From contig CAMDRI010000027.1 of assembly GCA_945906725.1 (NCBI GenBank), forward strand, positions 1-41,999: a stretch of DNA of 41,999 nucleotides, given 5' to 3'. Source of the stretch: Candidatus Kuenenia stuttgartensis. GTDB taxonomy: Bacteria; Planctomycetota; Planctomycetia; Planctomycetales; Planctomycetaceae. This document shows, one piece after another, positions 135-41,792 of the stretch. Every line of letters begins with the position of its first letter. Position 1 is the first letter of the stretch. The notes beneath the pieces are model-generated. The model did no database searches and was not told where the DNA came from. It worked only from the letters and a program-made list of their open reading frames with translations. A program made the translations under genes and the position numbers.

Positions 135-224
<90 letters not shown>

Positions 225-3337: not shown

Positions 3338-6300
3338 ATGAATCTTCTCGACCAACTACGTGACCTGCGCCAACAAGTCCGTCGGCTGTTGTGGCTGACC
3401 GGATTTTGTTGGGCGCTGGTGGCGTTGCTGAGCGGGGCGTTGCTGATTGGTTTCGGCGATTGGCTGTTGCACTTTGACGATCGCGGATTGCGATCCGGTT
3501 TGCTGGCGGCATTGTTGGTCACGGTCGGATGGTTGGCGTGGCGACGATTGATTGCTCCGCTGCGTCGGCCGTTGTCGAACTTGGAACTGTCCAGTCATCT
3601 CGAATCGCACTTTCCGAAACTGCGCAGCCGCTTGGCGACTGCGGTTGAGTTTTTGGAACACGAGGTCAGTCCGAGCGTCGGCTCGCCGGAGTTGCAGCGG
3701 CGGTTGATCGACCAGACGGCGATAGAAGTGCGCTCGCTGAATTTCGGCGAAGTGCTCGACCGGCGTGAGACGCGGCGGGCGGTGTTGTCGGCGGTGGCAT
3801 TGTTTGGCATTGGGTTGCTGTTGTTCGTGTCAAATTCGGCGGCTGCATCGACGGCGATGAGGCGGTTGTGGTGGCCTCTGGCGGATCATCCGTGGCCGAA
3901 GCGGGTCGAGTTGCAGTTGGTGCGCGGCGATCTCACACCCGTGACAGGGTCGCCGGACAAGCCGTTACGGAACGTGCAAGGACAGCCGCTCGATTTGTTT
4001 GTGGTGAACGCTCGTGGTGCATTGCCGCAGTCGGTGCTGGTCGAGTTTCGTCAGCGCGGCCGACTGCCGCAGTCGGAGCCGTTGCGAACAGCGACTCTAC
4101 GTGATGCGTCAGGCATGTCGCGCGAGGTCGCGGCGATTCGATTGCCGATCGACGAAGGGGCGGTCGAGTTTCGAGCCGTTGGCGGCGACGATCACGAGAT
4201 GCCGTGGCACGAACTCCGGATCGTACCTCCTCCCAAACTGGAGTCGTTTCGCGTCGAGATCAACCCGCCGAGCTACACGGGGGAAGCGTCCACGACGCTG
4301 TTGGAAGGAGCGACTCAATTTCGTGCGACAGTTGGTTCGCGAGTGAAAGTCAGCGCGAAGACGAATCGGCCGGTGACTAGCGCCGTAGCGGATGCTGCCA
4401 GCATCCGCACGGACGTTGGCCACGAGATTTCGATCGCGCCGAAGGGACGCGATCTGGTCTGGCGGTTCGAGGTGCGGAGTTCCGGATCGGTGACTCAGCA
4501 ACTCGCGCTGACGGATCGGGACGCGTTTGAGAATCTGTCGGCGTTGCGATTGGAAGTCGTCGGCATCGTCGATCCGCCGCCCGTCGTGACTCTGGAACAG
4601 CCCGCGACCGATCAGCTCGTGACGGCGAACGCCACCGTGCGTCTCGCGGCGACCGCGCGAGACGAGCGGCGGCTTCGCGATGTGGCATTGGAGCACACTG
4701 TAGGGTGGGACAAGCTCGCTTCGAGCGCCGACCCACCAACCGCGCTCCCGGTGGGCCGGCGCGGCGAAACGCCACTGGTCCCACCCTACGAGTCGCCACA
4801 AAGTTCTGCGGACTGGCACGTTGAAAACGTGCCCCACGAGGACGGGGCGCGCGAGGCGGTCGTGCGGCTGGCTTGGCTGTTAAGCAAGCTCGATCCGAAG
4901 GTCGGTGATCGGATCGCTCTGCGAGTCGCCGCGTCGGATCACTGCGATGTCGGTGAGCCGCGTTTCGGTCGCAGCGTGACGCGGACACTGACGGTCGTCT
5001 CGCCGGAAGAAAAGCTGTCGGAGATCGCGCATCGCCTCGATCTGCTGCTGCATGAATTAGAATCGCTCGCCACGAAACAGTCGCAGACGAACGATCAAAC
5101 GGACTTGCTCCGCGTTCAAGCGGAGAAGGCGAGCGAATTCCGTCCGCAGGATCGCGACTCGCTCAAACGGGTCGAATTGGATCAACGGCAGATTGGTTCG
5201 CGGCTGACTGGCCGAGGCGACGGTGTCATCGCGCGCGCTCACGAATTGCTATTGCAACTCGAAGACAACCAGTTGAACGATTCGGTGACGCGTGAACGCT
5301 TGACTGACATTGCGACGGCAATCGAAGGGTTGGACCGTCAGACGCTGCCGACGTTGGAGAGCTTGTTGGGGCGTGTCGTGAAGGAAAGCGGCGGAACTAC
5401 GCCGCTCGCCGGCATTGCGGGATTGTTCCCGGAGATTGCCACGCGTCAGGGAGACGTACTGAAGACGTTGAATGATTTGATCCACGATTTGACGCAGTGG
5501 CGCGATCGGCGCGACTTGGCCCGCGAAGTTGGCGAACTCGCGAAGACGCAAGAGGCACTCAATCAAGACACGTCGGAACTGGCACCGCAGACGCTGGGAA
5601 AATCGGCGTCGCAGTTGCCGAGTCAGCAGCAGGCCGACGTCGCGAAGCTCGCGGACCGGCAGTCGCGGCAGGCTGAGCGCATCGAACAACTGCGACAACG
5701 CCTCACGCAGTCGTCGCGTGAAGGTCGGGAGGGCGAGGCTCCCGCCGAGCTGAAACGCGATGTGTCCGACAACGGCTCAGCGGGAGCCTCGCCCTCCCAG
5801 GATGCTACCGCACACGAGGTGGCGAACGAACTCGATCAGCGTACTCTGGCGGCGAAGGCGCGCGAGGCGGCGCGAGAAGTCGCCGAGAACAATCTCGGAC
5901 AGGCGGGCCGCACGCAGCAGCAACTCGCCGAGGAATTGCAGGCCCTCGCCGACAAGCTCGCGCAAACTTCAACGTCGAACACCGATGCAGCTGTTCGCGA
6001 GTTGCAGGAACTGGAAGGACAACTCGATTCGTTGACTCAGCAGCAGCGGAAGTTGCTCAATGAAACTCGCGCGGCGGCGGAGAAGGCCGACTCACTAACG
6101 CCGGACGAAGTTGCCGAGCTCGCCAAGGCTTTGCACGAACGACAAGCCGAAACGAAAAAGTCGGCGGAGGAATTGGCCGCGAAGTTGAAAGCGACTCGCG
6201 CCAACGAATCGCGTGAGGCACTGCGTCGCGCAAGCCGGCACATGCAGCAGGCGGCATCGCTATTGGCCGACAAGCAACTCGCTCGCGGAGTGGAAGAAGA

Positions 6301-29785: not shown

Positions 29786-30610
29786 ATGACAGATGATTAT
29801 CGAGTGACCTTGCCGCGTTATTCCGGGCCGCTGGACCTGTTGCTGTTCCTGGTCCGGCGGAACGAATTGGATTTGATCGATCTACCGATCTCCGAAATCA
29901 CGGCGCAGTTTCAGAGGTATCTGAAAGCGTTGCAGTTTCTGGATCTCGATCAGGCGGGGGATTTTGTCGTGATGGCCAGCACGCTGCTGGAAATCAAAAG
30001 TCGACAGGCACTGCCAAATCCGGACGAGGAAGAAGAAGTCCCGGTAGAACCAGTGGACGATCCGCGCGGCGGGCTGATCCAGCAGTTGCTCGAATACAAG
30101 CGGTTCAAAGAGGCGGCGAAGGCTCTCGAAGAACGCGCGGCGGAATCGCTCGAGCGCTATCCGCGACTGAGTGATGAACGCCCCGACGCCGTGCGCGATC
30201 CGAGTGCCGATCGGATCAAAGGGGTCGAACTCTGGGACTTGGTCAGCGCGCTCAGCCGAGTGCTCGAACGCCGGGTCATCGAAGAGGAATCAAAGATCCG
30301 TTACGACGACACGCCGATCTCGGTCTACATCGATCAAATCGCGACGCGAGTCCGCGAGTTGGGCCGTGTCGGCTTCACAGCGTTGTTCGACAACGCCTCG
30401 CAACGCAGCCGGATCATCAGCATCTTTCTGGCGATTCTCGAACTGTTACGACATCATGGTTTCCGAGCCGACCAGGCCGATGCCTTCGGCGAGATTTGGA
30501 TTGTGCCACCCGACGTAGGTCAGCCTTTCCAGGCTGACCCGATGGTGCCATCGACGACCGATCCCGAACCGGGGCAGCCTGGAAAGGCTGACCTACAGGA
30601 GCCGACATGA
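29786..30610 (+). CDS. scpA: Segregation and condensation protein A
   Basis: 274 residues. The ScpA opening YSGPLDLLLFLVRRNELDL (residues 10-28 region) and ASTLLEIKSRQALP are diagnostic. ScpA is the kleisin that bridges SMC heads, with ScpB, to compact and separate chromosomes. The C-terminal winged-helix part ends near residue 245; the last about 30 residues come from a palindromic repeat (30515-30596), giving VGQPFQADP and GQPGKADLQ. The stop overlaps the next gene's start (ATGA at 30607). No scpB is visible in the window. Confidence 0.94.
   Translation: MTDDYRVTLPRYSGPLDLLLFLVRRNELDLIDLPISEITAQFQRYLKALQFLDLDQAGDFVVMASTLLEIKSRQALPNPDEEEEVPVEPVDDPRGGLIQQLLEYKRFKEAAKALEERAAESLERYPRLSDERPDAVRDPSADRIKGVELWDLVSALSRVLERRVIEEESKIRYDDTPISVYIDQIATRVRELGRVGFTALFDNASQRSRIISIFLAILELLRHHGFRADQADAFGEIWIVPPDVGQPFQADPMVPSTTDPEPGQPGKADLQEPT
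30515..30596. repeat. 82-bp palindromic element at the 3' end of scpA
   Basis: Bases 30515-30536 (beginning GTAGGTCAGCC) are the exact reverse complement of 30575-30596: a 22-bp perfect inverted repeat. Each arm is also self-complementary (CAGCCT/AGGCTG), so it can fold as one long stem or two small hairpins. It is translated at the end of ScpA. The left half recurs, degenerate, at 7542-7570. Confidence 0.88.
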
Positions 30611-31782
30611 ACGTTCTCTCGCGACTGACCGAATGGCATCCCGAACTGACCGCGGTGCGGCGCGAGCTGCACGCTCATCCGCAGACCGCGTTCGAGGAGA
30701 CGTTTGCTTCGGAACTCATCGCCTCGAAGTTGCAGGCCTGGGGCATCGAAACACATCGCGGACTCGCGAAGACCGGCGTAGTCGGCGTCATTCGCGGTAA
30801 GCAACTCGGCGATGCGCGGCTGCGCAGCATCGGATTGCGAGCCGACATCGATGCGCTCGATATCGAGGAACAGAATGACGTCCCGCATCGCTCGCAAAAC
30901 CCTGGCAAGATGCATGCCTGCGGTCACGACGGACACACGACGATGCTGCTGGGGGCTGCTCGGTATCTCGCCGGGTCACGCAACTTCGCAGGCACGGTGA
31001 ACGTCATCTTTCAGCCCGCCGAGGAAAACGAAGGGGGTGGCCGAGTGATGGTCGAGGAGGGGCTCTTCAACCAGTTCCCCTGCGACGCGGTCTTCGGTAT
31101 GCACAACTGGCCGGGGATGCCGGTTGGACATTTCGGCGTCTGCTCCGGCCCGATCATGGCCGCATTCGACGTCTTCGAGATCATCGTCCGGGGTCACGGG
31201 ACGCACGCCGCGATGCCGCACCTGGGGGTCGATCCGATCGTCGCAGCCTCGCAGATCGTCACCGCGTTGCAGACGATCGCCAGCCGCAACATGAATCCGC
31301 TCGATCAACTGGTCATCAGCGTCACGCAGATTCACGGCGGCGACACCTGGAACGTGATTCCGACGCAAGTGATGCTGCGCGGAACCGCTCGAACGTTTCG
31401 CAAAGAAGTGCAGGACATGGCCGAAGCCCACATGCGACGAATCGTGAGCGGCATCGCGACCTCGCTGGGAGCCTCCGCCGAACTGCACTACGACCGCCGT
31501 TATCCGTCGACGGTCAACACGCTGCAAGAAACTCAGTGGGCGGCCGAGGCGGCCGCCGACGTCGTCGGCACGCAGCACGTCGACACGAACGTTGCTCCCT
31601 GCATGGGTGGCGAGGATTTTTCGTTCCTGCTGCAAGAGCGACCCGGCTGCTACTTGTGGGCGGGCAACGGCCCCTCCGATAACGGCCGCGTACTGCACAA
31701 TCCGCGCTACGATTTCAACGACGACCTGCTGCCGATCGGAGCCAGCTACTGGGTGCGACTCACCGAACGGCTGCTCGCTTGA
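30607..31782 (+). CDS. M20-family amidohydrolase (hippurate hydrolase/N-acyl amino acid deacylase type)
   Basis: 391 residues, typical length. The metal-site motif HACGHDGHTTML carries C105 and H107; E139/E140 in QPAEENEGGG supply the catalytic and metal-binding acids, with H164 (GMHNWPG) and a late His (CMGGEDFS region, then RVLHNPRYDFND) completing the site. These enzymes remove acyl groups from amino acids or cleave small amides in the cytoplasm. The ATG at 30607 overlaps the scpA stop and has AGGAG 5 bases upstream, so it is coupled to scpA, a pairing I would not expect functionally. Confidence 0.92.
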   Translation: MNVLSRLTEWHPELTAVRRELHAHPQTAFEETFASELIASKLQAWGIETHRGLAKTGVVGVIRGKQLGDARLRSIGLRADIDALDIEEQNDVPHRSQNPGKMHACGHDGHTTMLLGAARYLAGSRNFAGTVNVIFQPAEENEGGGRVMVEEGLFNQFPCDAVFGMHNWPGMPVGHFGVCSGPIMAAFDVFEIIVRGHGTHAAMPHLGVDPIVAASQIVTALQTIASRNMNPLDQLVISVTQIHGGDTWNVIPTQVMLRGTARTFRKEVQDMAEAHMRRIVSGIATSLGASAELHYDRRYPSTVNTLQETQWAAEAAADVVGTQHVDTNVAPCMGGEDFSFLLQERPGCYLWAGNGPSDNGRVLHNPRYDFNDDLLPIGASYWVRLTERLLA

Positions 31783-31783
31783 C

Positions 31784-31829
31784 GTAGGATGGGCACTCTT
31801 GCCCGTCCCTGGTCGGGCAAGAGCACCCA
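31784..31829. repeat. GTAGGAT hairpin directly after the M20 stop codon
   Basis: The element starts one base after TGA (31780-31782) with GTAGGATGGGCACTC, and CTCTTGCCCG (31796-31805) pairs with CGGGCAAGAG (31814-31823). Its left 24 bases match an arm of the 32877-32947 element at 23 of 24 positions. It may end transcription of the M20 gene, but no T run follows. Confidence 0.82.
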
Positions 31830-31859
31830 ACCCAAGAGAACTCCTTTGGAGCACGAATC

Positions 31860-32876
31860 ATGATCGTTGTGATGAAGCGAACGGCGTCTCCCGAAGCGGT
31901 CCAGCAGATGGCTCGTAAAGTCGAAGAGATGGGCCTCAAGGCGCACGTCATCGTCGGTACGGAGCGAACCGTGATCGCTGCCGTTGGCGACAAGCGGAAC
32001 GGTGCGAAGGAGCTGCTCGAATCCTGTGACGAGGTCGAGCAAGTTGTCCCGATCCTCGCGCCTTACAAAGTCGCTAGCCGCGAGACGAAGCCGGAGTCAA
32101 CCGCGATTCGAGTTCGTGACTTGGTGATTGGCGGCGGCCACATCGGAGTCATCGCCGGCCCCTGCTCGGTCGAAAGCGAAGAACAGATTCTGCTCGCCGC
32201 CGAGCAGGTGAAAGCGGCCGGTGCGACTGGCCTGCGGGGCGGAGCCTTCAAGCCCCGCACCAGCCCTTACGCCTTCCAAGGGATGAAGGAAGAGGGACTC
32301 AAGCTGCTCGCCCTCGCCCGGGAGAAGACCGGACTCGCGATCGTCACCGAGGTGATGACTCCGCAACATGTCGAACTCGTTGCGAAGTACACCGACGTGC
32401 TGCAAATCGGTGCTCGCAACATGCAGAACTATCACCTGCTGCAAGCGGTCGGCGAGACTCGACTGCCGGTGCTGCTCAAACGCGGCCCATCGGCGACGAT
32501 CGAAGAGTTCTTGCTTGCAGCGGAATACATCCTCGATCAAGGCAATCAGCAAGTCATGCTCTGCGAGCGAGGAATCCGTACGTTCGAGACGCACACACGC
32601 TTCACGCTGCCGCTGGCGACAGTGGCCTACCTGCAGGAGAAAACGCACTTGCCGGTCGTCGTCGATCCAAGTCACGGGACCGGCATCGCATCGCTCGTGC
32701 CGTCGATGTGTCTCGCGGCGGTCGCGTGCGGCAGCGACGGGTTGATTGTCGAAGTTCATCCCGACCCGAAGAAGGCGATGAGCGACGGAGCACAATCGCT
32801 CGCGCCTGCCGTGTTCGCAGACACGATGGCTCGCTGCCGACTCGTGGCCGCCGCCGTGGGCAAAACGATTGGCTGA
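31860..32876 (+). CDS. aroF: 3-deoxy-7-phosphoheptulonate synthase (DAHP synthase, type I-beta)
   Basis: 338 residues. A 70-residue N-terminal ferredoxin-like regulatory domain ([10 protein letters not shown]) precedes the catalytic barrel; that layout marks the Thermotoga-type enzymes. Active-site landmarks are AGPCSVES (99-106, metal Cys102), [14 protein letters not shown] (128-141) and VVDPSHGTG. It condenses phosphoenolpyruvate with erythrose-4-phosphate, the first step of the shikimate pathway; the extra domain usually gives inhibition by Tyr or Phe. GGAG is 8 bases before the ATG. The gene is flanked by two copies of the same repeat (31784 and 32877). Confidence 0.95.
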
Positions 32877-32947
32877 GTAGGATCGAAACTCCTGCCCGTC
32901 TGTCTTTCGCATCGAAAATACAGGACGGGCAAGAGTGTCCATCCTAC
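32877..32947. repeat. 71-bp palindromic element filling the gap between aroF and a convergent gene
   Basis: It starts on the base after the aroF TGA and ends 4 bases before the stop of the minus-strand BON gene. The arms 32877-32900 and 32924-32947 match at 21 of 24 positions as inverted repeats (GTAGGAT ends, TGCCCGTC/GACGGGCA cores). It may serve as a terminator for both genes. Confidence 0.88.
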
Positions 32948-32951
32948 GTCG

Positions 32952-33317
32952 TCACCCTTTGCGTGGCAGTTCGCGAGTGCGATGGACTACCAAGTGATTC
33001 AGCACTTGTGTCGCTCCGCAAACGTGGCGAACGAGCGTGCTCGCGTCAACTTCGTCATCGGCTTCGAGCACCCCTTCCAGACACAGTCCGTCGCGAACGC
33101 GGCGCACCACAAGCGACGTGAAATTGAGGCTCGGTTCCTCCATGAGCCGATTGCGGACATCTTGCTCCAGACGATGCGGGTGCAGCAGCACCGAGTCGTC
33201 GGGCGACATCAACAAGGTATCGCAGCAGGCTGGCTTTTTCACATCCACGGCCGGATCGGGGCGAAGCGGAGCGGGGACTCGACGACGCACTTCCTCTGAA
33301 CGAGACTGTTTTCGCAT
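32952..33317 (-). CDS. BON-domain-like small protein
   Basis: 121 residues with no signal peptide. A basic N-terminal tail is followed (about 52-118) by LEQDVRNRLMEEPSL, VRDGLCLEGVLEADDEVD and VCGATQVLNHLVVH, the alpha/beta pattern of BON domains, which are thought to bind phospholipid or other membrane surfaces. A Cys pair, CC, lies near residue 33. I chose the ATG at 33317 because GGAAGGAAG lies just upstream at good spacing; the frame upstream to 33380 is open but lacks support. Confidence 0.68.
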   Translation of the reverse strand: MRKQSRSEEVRRRVPAPLRPDPAVDVKKPACCDTLLMSPDDSVLLHPHRLEQDVRNRLMEEPSLNFTSLVVRRVRDGLCLEGVLEADDEVDASTLVRHVCGATQVLNHLVVHRTRELPRKG

Positions 33318-33455
33318 GGCGACTTCCTTCCGTCGCGAGCGTTCATTCCATTGAGTCGCGACGACCTTGACGGGACTCATCCTTTCCCGTCGGTCACTAA
33401 GAGTGACGGTAAGTCTACCCAGCGAAATCCAATTGACGAGTCCAATTTGTAACGC

Positions 33456-33980
33456 TCACTTCAGCCGCGGCATTCCGCGAGCGACTCGCTCACGATTCAG
33501 CCGCTCGAAGGCTGACCGCTCGTCCTTCAACAGTTTGATGAGTTGCGAACCGGTGCAACTCAAAGAGTTCGCCGCCGCTGAATGCTCGAAATCGCACATC
33601 GCGAGCACATCCAATGCCTCGGCCAGGAGCATGGGGTAATCCAGATGACTCGGATTCACGGAGATTCGCCCGGCGCTGCAGCGGGATCGCCACAACTCTG
33701 AGGGCACGGCATCGGGTGCGCGATCCGTGCGGACTTCGACTGCCAAGCGAACTCGCAGACGGAACAGCGCGACCTGCCGGTTCTCCGCCTGACTGCGACG
33801 CTCGTTGCCCTCGGCTTCGATCCCGGTGAATTCGTGCTTGAGGACGACGGCGGTCTCGACCTTGTTGCGATGCTGACCTCCCGGACCCGAACGCCGCGTT
33901 CGCCGCTCTGAGCACTCGCGCAGCAAAACCTCCGAATCGAGCGTGGCGGGATGACGGTCGTGAGAATTGTCGTTCGGCAT
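33456..33980 (-). CDS. Class I release-factor-like (GGQ) protein
   Basis: 174 residues. The peptidyl-tRNA hydrolysis motif GPGGQHRNKVETAVVL has GGQ at 34-36 and resembles the domain of RF1/RF2 and ArfB. There is no codon-recognition domain. Instead of a short Lys-rich ArfB tail it has an added helical C-terminal region (about 95-174), ending RERVARGMPRLK. It could rescue stalled ribosomes, or be one of the planctomycete release-factor-like proteins of unknown role. The start is ATG 33980; a TTG at 34007 in the same frame is less likely. It is divergent from the MocA-like gene. Confidence 0.8.
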   Translation of the reverse strand: MPNDNSHDRHPATLDSEVLLRECSERRTRRSGPGGQHRNKVETAVVLKHEFTGIEAEGNERRSQAENRQVALFRLRVRLAVEVRTDRAPDAVPSELWRSRCSAGRISVNPSHLDYPMLLAEALDVLAMCDFEHSAAANSLSCTGSQLIKLLKDERSAFERLNRERVARGMPRLK

Positions 33981-34046
33981 CGCCAGTTTTCCGTCGAGGA
34001 GACACAATCGTCACGCATGATTTCAATTCGCCCATCGGATTGCCAC

Positions 34047-40180: not shown

Positions 40181-40219
40181 GACTTACATCTCGTTCAGTG
40201 CTCTGGAATCAACAGAGAA

Positions 40220-40282
40220 GTAGCCACGTTCGCCAGAACGTGGGCGATCTGCCAACGCCCACGTTCTGGCGAACGTGGCTAC
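40220..40282. repeat. 63-bp element with 27-bp perfect arms
   Basis: Bases 40220-40246 (beginning GTAGCCACGTTCGCC) are the exact reverse complement of 40256-40282, around a 9-base centre. Each arm is also partly self-complementary (CCACGTTC/GAACGTGG). It lies between the Gfo/Idh/MocA stop and the LRR gene start, so it could end the former's transcript or affect the latter's. Confidence 0.9.
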
Positions 40283-40307
40283 CTCGAAACTCAATTCGGA
40301 ACGACCA

Positions 40308-41792
40308 CTAATCCAAGCGGTAACCTTCCGGGTACTTCGGCTTGATCAGGTCAGCCACGCGTGGCGTCTTGAGCGACGCGAGGTTCGTGACTTTGAGGTT
40401 TTTGGCGTCCCATTCGACCTTCTCGCCCCAGTCACCCATTGATCCGTCGATTCCGCCGTTGGCGGCGGCCCAGACGGCCAGGTTGCCGAGCAAAATCGTC
40501 TCGGTGAGTGGGCCGGCTCGGTCCACGAAGTTCGACTTGGCGATCTTCGGATCGTTGGCTCGCTTCGCGCGGAACAACTCGTACATGTTGCTGAGGTCGT
40601 TGTTCCCTTTGTTCTCGGCCTTCTCGTAATCGACTTTGACCTTCTCAACACCCTTGAGTTCGTAGACGCCGCAATAGTCGTCCGCGCTGTAGAAGGCTCC
40701 CTTTTCGCCGACGATCAACACGCCGCTGTCCGAGACCTTCGTGATGCCGTGCTTCTCGAAGACTTCCATCGGCGGCTTGTTTCCCTTGCGGTCGTACCAC
40801 CAGAACGGAATCGCGGGGCGTTCGGACGTTTCGGGGAACTCGAACTTGATGACCGCACTGGCCGGGAAGCTGTCGAAATCGTGACCCGTGGACTTGGCGA
40901 CGACGGAAATCGGATCGCGCAGTCCGCACGAGGCGAACGGGACCGTCAACTGGTGGCAGGCCATGTCGCCCAACGCCCCACTGCCAAAGTCCCACCAGCC
41001 GCGCCACTGGAACGTGTGGTAGATGCCGGGCCAGAACTCACGCTTCGGTGCGACACCGATCCAGTTCTTCCAATCGACTCGCTCGAGCGCCTTTTCGATT
41101 TCTTCTTTCTTCTTCTCAATGATCTTCGGGGCGCTCTCAAGATCATCCATCTTCGCCTGAGCGGCGAACTTTTCCATCGTCATTCGACGACCCGGGCCTT
41201 GTGCCCACACCGGACGGTTCGACCACGCGAAGACTTCCTTCAGCGTTCCGAGCACGCCGGACTTGATTTGAGCGATCGCTTCTCGCGACGAGTCCAGGGC
41301 CGTCCCTTGGTTGCCCATCTGCGTGCAGACCTTCTTTTCGTCCGCAACTTTGGCCATCAATCGAGCTTCGTAAATCGTCCGCGTCAGCGGCTTCTGGGTG
41401 TAGCAACCGATCCCCAATCGCATGGCAGCCAGCGTGGCTGGAGCGTGCATGTGGTCTGGGGTGCTGATAGTGCAGATGTCAATCTTGCTGCCGTGCTTGT
41501 CGAGCAGTTCGCGATAGTCGGTGAACTTCTCGGCGTTCGTGAATTTGTCGGATTTTCCTTTGCTTTCCAGCGTATTGCGGTCGACGTCGCAAATCGCGAC
41601 GACGTTGCCGAACTGCGAGGCATTGCTCGAATCGCTGCCTCCTTTGCCGCCCACACCGATGTTGGCGACGTTGAGTTCCTCGTTGGCGGAGAGGACTCGA
41701 TCAGGATTCACCAGTCCGTGACCCACATAAGCGCCGACACCGGCGACGGTCACGTTCTTCATAAATTCACGGCGGGAGTTTTGGCGGCGCAT
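40308..41792 (-). CDS. Gfo/Idh/MocA-family oxidoreductase, Tat-exported
   Basis: 494 residues. The N-terminus RRQNSRREFMKNVTVAG is a twin-arginine signal. The Rossmann motif NIGVGGKGG (44-52) binds NAD(P), followed by ICDVD and the family block TPDHMHAPATLAAMRLGIG and YTQKPLTRTIYEARLM (each within 20 residues), with Lys in TQKP as the catalytic Lys. Such exported members are numerous in planctomycetes and act on sugars or inositols; the substrate is not identifiable. ATG 41792 has GAGGG about 9 bases upstream; the frame upstream to 41906 is repetitive DNA. Confidence 0.94.
   Translation of the reverse strand: MRRQNSRREFMKNVTVAGVGAYVGHGLVNPDRVLSANEELNVANIGVGGKGGSDSSNASQFGNVVAICDVDRNTLESKGKSDKFTNAEKFTDYRELLDKHGSKIDICTISTPDHMHAPATLAAMRLGIGCYTQKPLTRTIYEARLMAKVADEKKVCTQMGNQGTALDSSREAIAQIKSGVLGTLKEVFAWSNRPVWAQGPGRRMTMEKFAAQAKMDDLESAPKIIEKKKEEIEKALERVDWKNWIGVAPKREFWPGIYHTFQWRGWWDFGSGALGDMACHQLTVPFASCGLRDPISVVAKSTGHDFDSFPASAVIKFEFPETSERPAIPFWWYDRKGNKPPMEVFEKHGITKVSDSGVLIVGEKGAFYSADDYCGVYELKGVEKVKVDYEKAENKGNNDLSNMYELFRAKRANDPKIAKSNFVDRAGPLTETILLGNLAVWAAANGGIDGSMGDWGEKVEWDAKNLKVTNLASLKTPRVADLIKPKYPEGYRLD

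Follow-up and report, generated by a model that had tools for sequence, protein, structure and literature searches.

REP inverted pairs around aroF in Candidatus Kuenenia stuttgartensis and different REP families at the same stop codons

Two short palindromic elements flank aroF in the window, a 41,999-nucleotide stretch of contig CAMDRI010000027.1 from Candidatus Kuenenia stuttgartensis (GCA_945906725.1; 5.45 Mb, 268 contigs, completeness 92%). We consider it very likely that both are inverted-pair copies (BIME/REPIN-like) of one GTAG-tagged REP family, here called family A, which a RAYT mobilises and which persists at gene 3′ ends. The maintained unit would be an arm of 25 nt made up of GTAG and a short hairpin; a RAYT (single-tyrosine HUH transposase) would spread its copies in trans, and these would survive at gene 3′ ends, we propose, because insertions elsewhere harm genes or promoters. 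A copy lying exactly at a stop would leave the protein unchanged, because GTAG contains TAG. The family is of a known kind, and its turnover with other families at stop codons is unusual. Comparisons within the genus cover 12 genomes (G000, the window's own, and sisters up to G011), with genes called by a home-made hexamer caller.

The two elements around aroF

The features discussed here are as follows.

136-224, minus strand: tRNA gene (Rfam)
30607..31782, plus strand: M20 amidohydrolase gene, TGA stop at 31780-31782 (PF01546, TIGR01891)
31784..31835: pair 1, a family A REP inverted pair lying 1 base past the M20 stop and 24 bases ahead of the aroF start, right arm decayed
31784..31808, plus strand: REP unit of pair 1, GTAG plus the hairpin GGATGGGC-ACTCTT-GCCCGTCC
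31811..31835, minus strand: decayed REP unit of pair 1 (TTGGGTTGGGTGCTCTTGCCCGACC), 4 mismatches in the first 21 bases
31860..32876, plus strand: aroF, DAHP synthase, TGA stop at 32874-32876 (PF00793, NF006421)
32877..32947: REP inverted pair 2 (family A), 0 bases past the aroF stop and 4 bases ahead of the convergent stop
32877..32901, plus strand: REP unit of pair 2, diverged, 4 mismatches in the first 21 bases
32923..32947, minus strand: REP unit of pair 2, 1 mismatch in the first 21 bases
32952..33380, minus strand: convergent ORF of 142 aa, family not found

The first-pass annotation described three near-identical arms abutting stop codons, and both parts of that description hold. Arm 31784-31807 agrees with the complement of 32924-32947 at 23/24 positions and with 32877-32900 at 20/24, the latter two agree at 21/24, and the stops lie where they were placed, with 1 base between the M20 stop (last base 31782) and element 1, none between the aroF stop (last base 32876) and element 2, and 4 between element 2 and the convergent stop, which begins at 32952. 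A fourth, decayed arm, the complement of 31815-31835 (4 mismatches in 21), completes element 1, so that the window carries two inverted pairs and not three arms. Pfam supports the names M20 and DAHP synthase (aroF), whereas the label 'BON' for the convergent ORF could not be upheld, as ORF 32952-33380 has no Pfam or NCBIfam match at E 0.001. The arm at 31784..31808 carries the commonest base at all 25 positions of a set of 271 arms, and this 25-mer folds into a hairpin of its own at -15.4 kcal/mol.

The pair between M20 and aroF is common to G000, G003 and G010, decayed in G004 and absent from G002, G008, G009 and G011; aroF had no match at the cut-off in the remaining four genus genomes. The first-pass annotation had suggested that the direct copies could recombine across aroF; in all seven sister genomes with a match, the gene is full-length and has no inner stop. 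In the slot 3′ of aroF, G010 carries a family A pair whose first G completes the TAG stop, and G003, G008, G009 and G011 carry palindromes that by eye are unrelated to family A; inspection by eye found no element there in G004 and an ambiguous case in G002. The window elements are two REP pairs, ordinary in kind, and pair 1 is old enough to be shared with three sister genomes.

The pairs might instead be selected as bidirectional terminators, or as stabilisers of the mRNA 3′ ends of the flanking genes. Consistent with this, the long hairpins at the window's elements are stable (-28.9 to -46.9 kcal/mol, z -3.2 to -8.6), they lie past stops and between convergent genes, and some palindrome follows aroF in 5/7 sister genomes and M20 in at least 5/7, as judged by eye. 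However, the aroF end in G004 has no element, and a search for intrinsic terminators (a G+C stem-loop plus a T run) gave five matches within 30400-33500 and none at either element, where no T-tract was found. The sole match at the Rfam gathering score in the window is the tRNA, and neither element matches.

The window holds other repeats. The ScpA ORF (29786-30610) contains at its 3′ end, downstream of its Pfam match, an inverted pair of another REP family (GTAGGTCAGCCTTTCCAGGCTGACC) at 30515-30596, so that the ScpA tail appears to be encoded by this pair. A family B pair at 40217-40285 (CCACGTTCGCCAGAACGTGG) lies 22-25 bases from the stop of a reverse-strand gene ending at 40308, and a 24-base inverted repeat (GGGAGGGCGAGGCTCCCGCCGAGC) at 5727-5798, within a 1400-aa ORF, is possibly a REP-like insert. 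At 33456-34007, a 183-aa ORF partially matches peptide chain release factors and ArfB, all below NCBIfam cut-offs.

Family A arms and their copies

As the first-pass annotation had anticipated, the arm has many further copies: at up to 3 mismatches we found 257 arms (126 + 131) in the whole 5.45 Mb genome, compared to none (0 + 0) for the reversed control pattern. Family A is present in 12/12 genus genomes at 50 to 270 arms each, with one match to the reversed control across all 12 (in G009). An exact 22-base scan of public genome contigs gave at least 109 stretches, and the 80 titles among the matches listed are all planctomycetes.

The conserved unit, taken from 271 arms counted once per distinct flank, is 25 nt long (GTAGGATGGGCACTCTTGCCCGTCC) with a sharp boundary at about 25 nt. 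Each arm contains the hairpin GGAYGGGC-ACTCTT-GCCCGTCC with GTAG 5′ of it; the tag is GTAG in 218/271 arms, GGAG in 18 and GTAA in 13, and the base preceding the unit is a pyrimidine (C or T) in 82% of the 271 and G in 3%. Within an arm, positions 6 and 23 co-vary (A-T or T-A) and are paired in 216/228 arms, compared to a mean of 158 and a maximum of 174 in 2000 shuffles. Between the two arms of a pair, agreement at the main variable positions 6, 7, 16 and 23 does not exceed that of shuffled partners (p 0.14 to 0.83; 114 pairs); of all 25 positions examined, four (2, 10, 14 and 25) have p values of 0.006 to 0.047. Spacers of the 114 pairs span 0-98 nt (median 17) and are largely unrelated. Because covariation is strong within arms and slight between them, the maintained unit looks like the single hairpin arm rather than the long palindrome.

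The chance-level agreement between arms argues against termination or 3′-end stabilisation as the function of the pair, as does the fact that 27 of the 57 elements in our placement sample were scored as single arms (some with a decayed partner below threshold). At one orthologous pair, 3′ of the gene L091, both arms have changed at loop position 16 between G000 and G010 and the long pairing is thereby kept, which is in line with such a function. With the arms of a pair barely co-varying and no T-tract at either element, dual terminators, which the first-pass annotation had put forward, are unlikely as the primary unit, and we hold the wider terminator or stabiliser account to be improbable.

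Gene-end placement and RAYT transposases

The placement sample comprises 40 stretches and the window, and since many own-genome stretches were picked for holding arms, no densities were estimated from them. Called ORFs contain 12 of the 57 elements; of the others, convergent gaps hold 18, tandem gaps 23 and divergent gaps 3, with 1 at an edge. The convergent count exceeds expectation (6.2 by intergenic length, 7.7 by gap number), the divergent count falls short of it (15.7 by length, 8.1 by number), and 19/23 elements in tandem gaps lie closer to the stop than to the next start (p=0.0026). In 14/57 elements a neighbouring gene uses the tag's TAG as its stop codon; these elements serve 17 gene ends (tag GTAG at 16, TTAG at the other), and three of the pairs supply stops to both convergent genes. 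In other planctomycetes (the 109 stretches, among the matches listed), 25 of 118 elements lie inside ORFs and TAG overlap occurs at 13/78 stop-side ends. Proximity to stop codons is real and general, and copies are not spread at random, in keeping with the bias that the first-pass annotation had raised.

Family A pairs lying wholly within called ORFs are candidate in-gene REP inserts: L100 8443-8514 (72 nt), L096 2778-2829 (52 nt), L086 11547-11604 (58 nt) and L076 13694-13782 (89 nt).

Family A shows the features by which REPs and BIMEs are recognised, namely a short (20-40 nt) palindrome with GTAG or a variant 5′ of it, high copy number with mostly extragenic placement (257 arms; 12/57 elements inside ORFs) and inverted pairs with outer tags (30/57 sampled elements). 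It is a family of GTAG-tagged REPs/BIMEs, a known kind. GTAG-tagged REP dimers (HH type) are described from organisms including Planctomycetes (R. baltica), and that study places REPs close to 3′ ends, with termini that often provide TAG stops (Di Nocera et al., 2013, PMC3733652); GTAG REPs providing TAG stops were thus already published in 2013. Family A resembles those HH dimers in its GTAG tag and in a short hairpin with alternative complementary residues and G-T pairs, and its copies resemble the REPs of that study in lying between tandem and convergent genes near 3′ ends, with TAG often serving as the stop and some copies in ORFs; the study lists 24 families, of which family A may be one. 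REPs of E. coli are reported within 15 nt of stop codons, with an effect on translation (described in PMC12306157). Copies in this genus likewise lie immediately 3′ of stops, where they may affect RNA, but the commonest single position is overlap with the stop itself.

The first-pass annotation pointed to a Y1 (RAYT-type) transposase behind the repeats; one flanked by family A was found in sister genome G005 and none so flanked in the own assembly. At 92% completeness this assembly has four Y1 genes, none with a family A arm in its locus, and all four were rejected as the cognate family A RAYT. At one of them, L031 on contig C96, two GTAG hairpins of different sequence abut each other about 45-95 nt past the stop; they are not family A.

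The G005 RAYT, L286, is the only one of 91 genus Y1 loci with family A arms on both sides of the gene. With up to 4 mismatches allowed, three arms precede the gene and two follow it, forming an inverted pair on each side with one extra arm. Its TAG stop touches or runs into the first downstream arm, and the family A copies at this locus are GGAG-tagged. L286 scores 73.6 bits against NF047646 REP_Tyr_transpos, below the cut-off of 80, and matches E. coli TnpAREP 4er8 at E 4e-4. A scan of the first 31 Y1 loci gave no family A arm, the scan of 71 gave L285 and L286, and that of all 91 gave in addition L406; L285 holds a family A pair and L406 a single arm, and the families at the flanks of the two genes are D and E. 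These two and family C, all also found at stops, have RAYTs of their own: family C flanks L409 and L410 (G011), family D flanks L285 (G008) on both sides and L284 (G002) downstream only, and family E flanks L406 (G010), with REP flanks inspected for filter-passing ORFs (21 hits; 29/57 ORFs) and those of other loci within the 71-locus scan only.

RAYTs, the GTAG guide and REPs near stops are all established subjects (PMC2817692, PMC8266576, PMC6006769, PMC3686654, PMC12306157). The L286 arrangement is like that of REPtrons, in which a Y1 HUH gene is flanked by cognate repeats with GTAG 5′ of the hairpin, as described for RAYTs/REPtrons and BIMEs (Nunvar et al., 2010, PMC2817692; TnpAREP study, 2021, PMC8266576). 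Two points differ: the own assembly has no family A REPtron, and the G005 one carries GGAG tags and has an inverted pair to either side of its gene plus a further arm.

In a tree of 29 RAYT-like ORFs, eight that are REP-flanked fall in one 10-row group and two more stand alone, and a 16-row group includes the four Y1 genes of the own genome; some branches are long and the grouping is tentative. Members of the 16-member group carry the motif PNHWH and mostly have no REP flanks. Among other planctomycetes, L130 contains a RAYT fragment and L111 a RAYT-like ORF with a weak arm. Several observations stand against spread of family A by a RAYT with survival at gene ends: the lack of a family A RAYT in the own assembly, the single locus among 91 with family A arms on both sides of its gene, the GGAG tags of the G005 copies, the copies in ORFs (12/57; 25/118 in the listed planctomycete matches) and the position of the own Y1 genes outside the mainly REP-flanked group of the tree. 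That a RAYT mobilises family A and that selection acts at gene ends is what we infer.

Paired arms near stops also look like the uptake-sequence terminators of Neisseria, which have this arrangement, and by that analogy the arms might be DNA-uptake-like sequences, paired, at gene ends. The GTAG tag, the hairpin within each arm, a RAYT flanked by the same repeat and the many coexisting families of the same build all argue against it, and we regard it as very improbable.

GTAG stops and the turnover of families

Among 1361 gene ends of the genus, a hairpin starts 0-1 nt past the stop at 64/236 GTAG stops versus 13/1125 other ends (2/128 other TAG, 4/727 TGA and 7/270 TAA), under self-defined hairpin rules by which a hairpin 3′ of a stop does not prove a REP. 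Hairpins tagged with GTAG start at the stop itself in 49 cases and in at most 6 at any position from 0 to 60 downstream, making stop overlap their commonest single position in the genus. Hairpins tagged with GTGG, a tag that cannot be a stop, number 0 at the stop and 17 at 0-12 nt. In an earlier set of 1130 ends, the hairpins 3′ of GTAG stops belong to 14 families.

Orthologue 3′ ends were compared across the genus for genes whose end overlaps an element. At the end of L091, a putative aldo-keto reductase gene (named by sequence look), the stop is GTAG in 11/12 genomes and TAA in G002. Family A lies 3′ of this stop in G000 and G010, family B (the one at 40217-40285 in the window) in G003 and family C (GTTGGGACTCCGTCCCGAC) in G008, G009 and G011, and G001, G004, G005, G006 and G007, all with a GTAG stop, have no hairpin. 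At L103, compared without G008 (whose sole match is a 32%-identical paralogue), family A is at the stop in G000 and G010, and the orthologues without a hairpin there end in GTAG in six cases and TGA in three. Two or more families occur in 7/14 occupied groups (of 109 groups), compared to 2.4 to 3.5 expected (p 0.0002 to 0.008), and in 6/14 compared to 2.2 to 3.3 when two similar hairpins are merged (p 0.003 to 0.03). That unrelated REP families share one stop codon across species appears to be new.

Element-free orthologues of occupied ends often already end in GTAG. With the reservation that some ends scored as element-free hold remnants or copies that have diverged (at the L094 gene, in G000 and G001), GTAG stops make up 24/75 element-free orthologues where the group has an element at the stop, 7/59 where elements are merely nearby and 30/374 where none is seen (at-stop versus nearby, p=0.017; versus none, p=9e-5; nearby versus none, p=0.32), and 13/60 at-stop orthologues once the two GTAG-richest groups are removed (p=0.001). 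This also looks new, and suggests that native GTAG stops may be landing sites. Di Nocera et al. (PMC3733652) have REP termini providing the stop, whereas here element-free relatives often already have a GTAG stop, and different families occupy it in different species. The literature, as partially surveyed, treats the GTAG tag as a guide inside the repeat; the same survey found neither a rule for REP site choice nor an account of one REP family taking the place of another at a stop codon.

Two readings of these patterns compete. In one, the stop codon would be a landing site in the genus: REP bodies of many competing RAYT families would insert directly 3′ of a native GTAG, keep it as their tag, leave the protein unchanged and replace one another over evolution. 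Elements of the IS200/IS605 type retain their target tetranucleotide, an analogy for a kept GTAG tag. We hold this reading tentatively, at somewhat less than even chances, and because free GTAG is too rare downstream of stops it is not our best explanation. A pure target model, with each copy on a pre-existing GTAG, is unsupported downstream of stops for the same scarcity: at 0-12 nt, GTAG occurs with a hairpin in 29 cases versus 7 in REP-free ends, and at the stop itself in 38 versus 94, whereas a pure landing rule predicts equal ratios.

The same ratios favour the other reading, in which every element carries GTAG with it and inserts at random, closeness to stops results purely from selection, and a GTAG stop in an element-free relative is the scar of an element since lost. 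GTAG-short-CTAC remnants agree with it, an example being GTAG-CTCGG-CTAC in G001 at the L094 gene, and from such remnants scars of lost elements probably do occur. Six of the 17 occupied groups have no GTAG stop among their element-free members, and the L085 protein of G000 stops 3 to 10 aa short of those of its 11 relatives. However, protein-neutral random landing predicts about 1 copy at the stop (an estimate from 33 copies over positions 0-12 and the 44% of genes in which G precedes the stop), compared to 49 observed, and hairpin-free relatives also end in GTAG, including the most distant (G005 and G006 at L091; G002, G004, G009 and G011 at L103). Random landing followed by selection and loss is to us a plausible account short of an even likelihood. 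A truncation model, with random in-frame hits in the last codons, was rejected because in 12/17 groups at least one occupied end matches the commonest element-free end, the other ends being shifted by -4, -3, -1, +1, +2 and +7 aa; it does fit L085, which is not among the 17 groups.

Repeated occupation of one stop codon by unrelated REP families offers natural before-and-after sites at which the target rule could be read, and the traffic of REPs may shape stop-codon usage.
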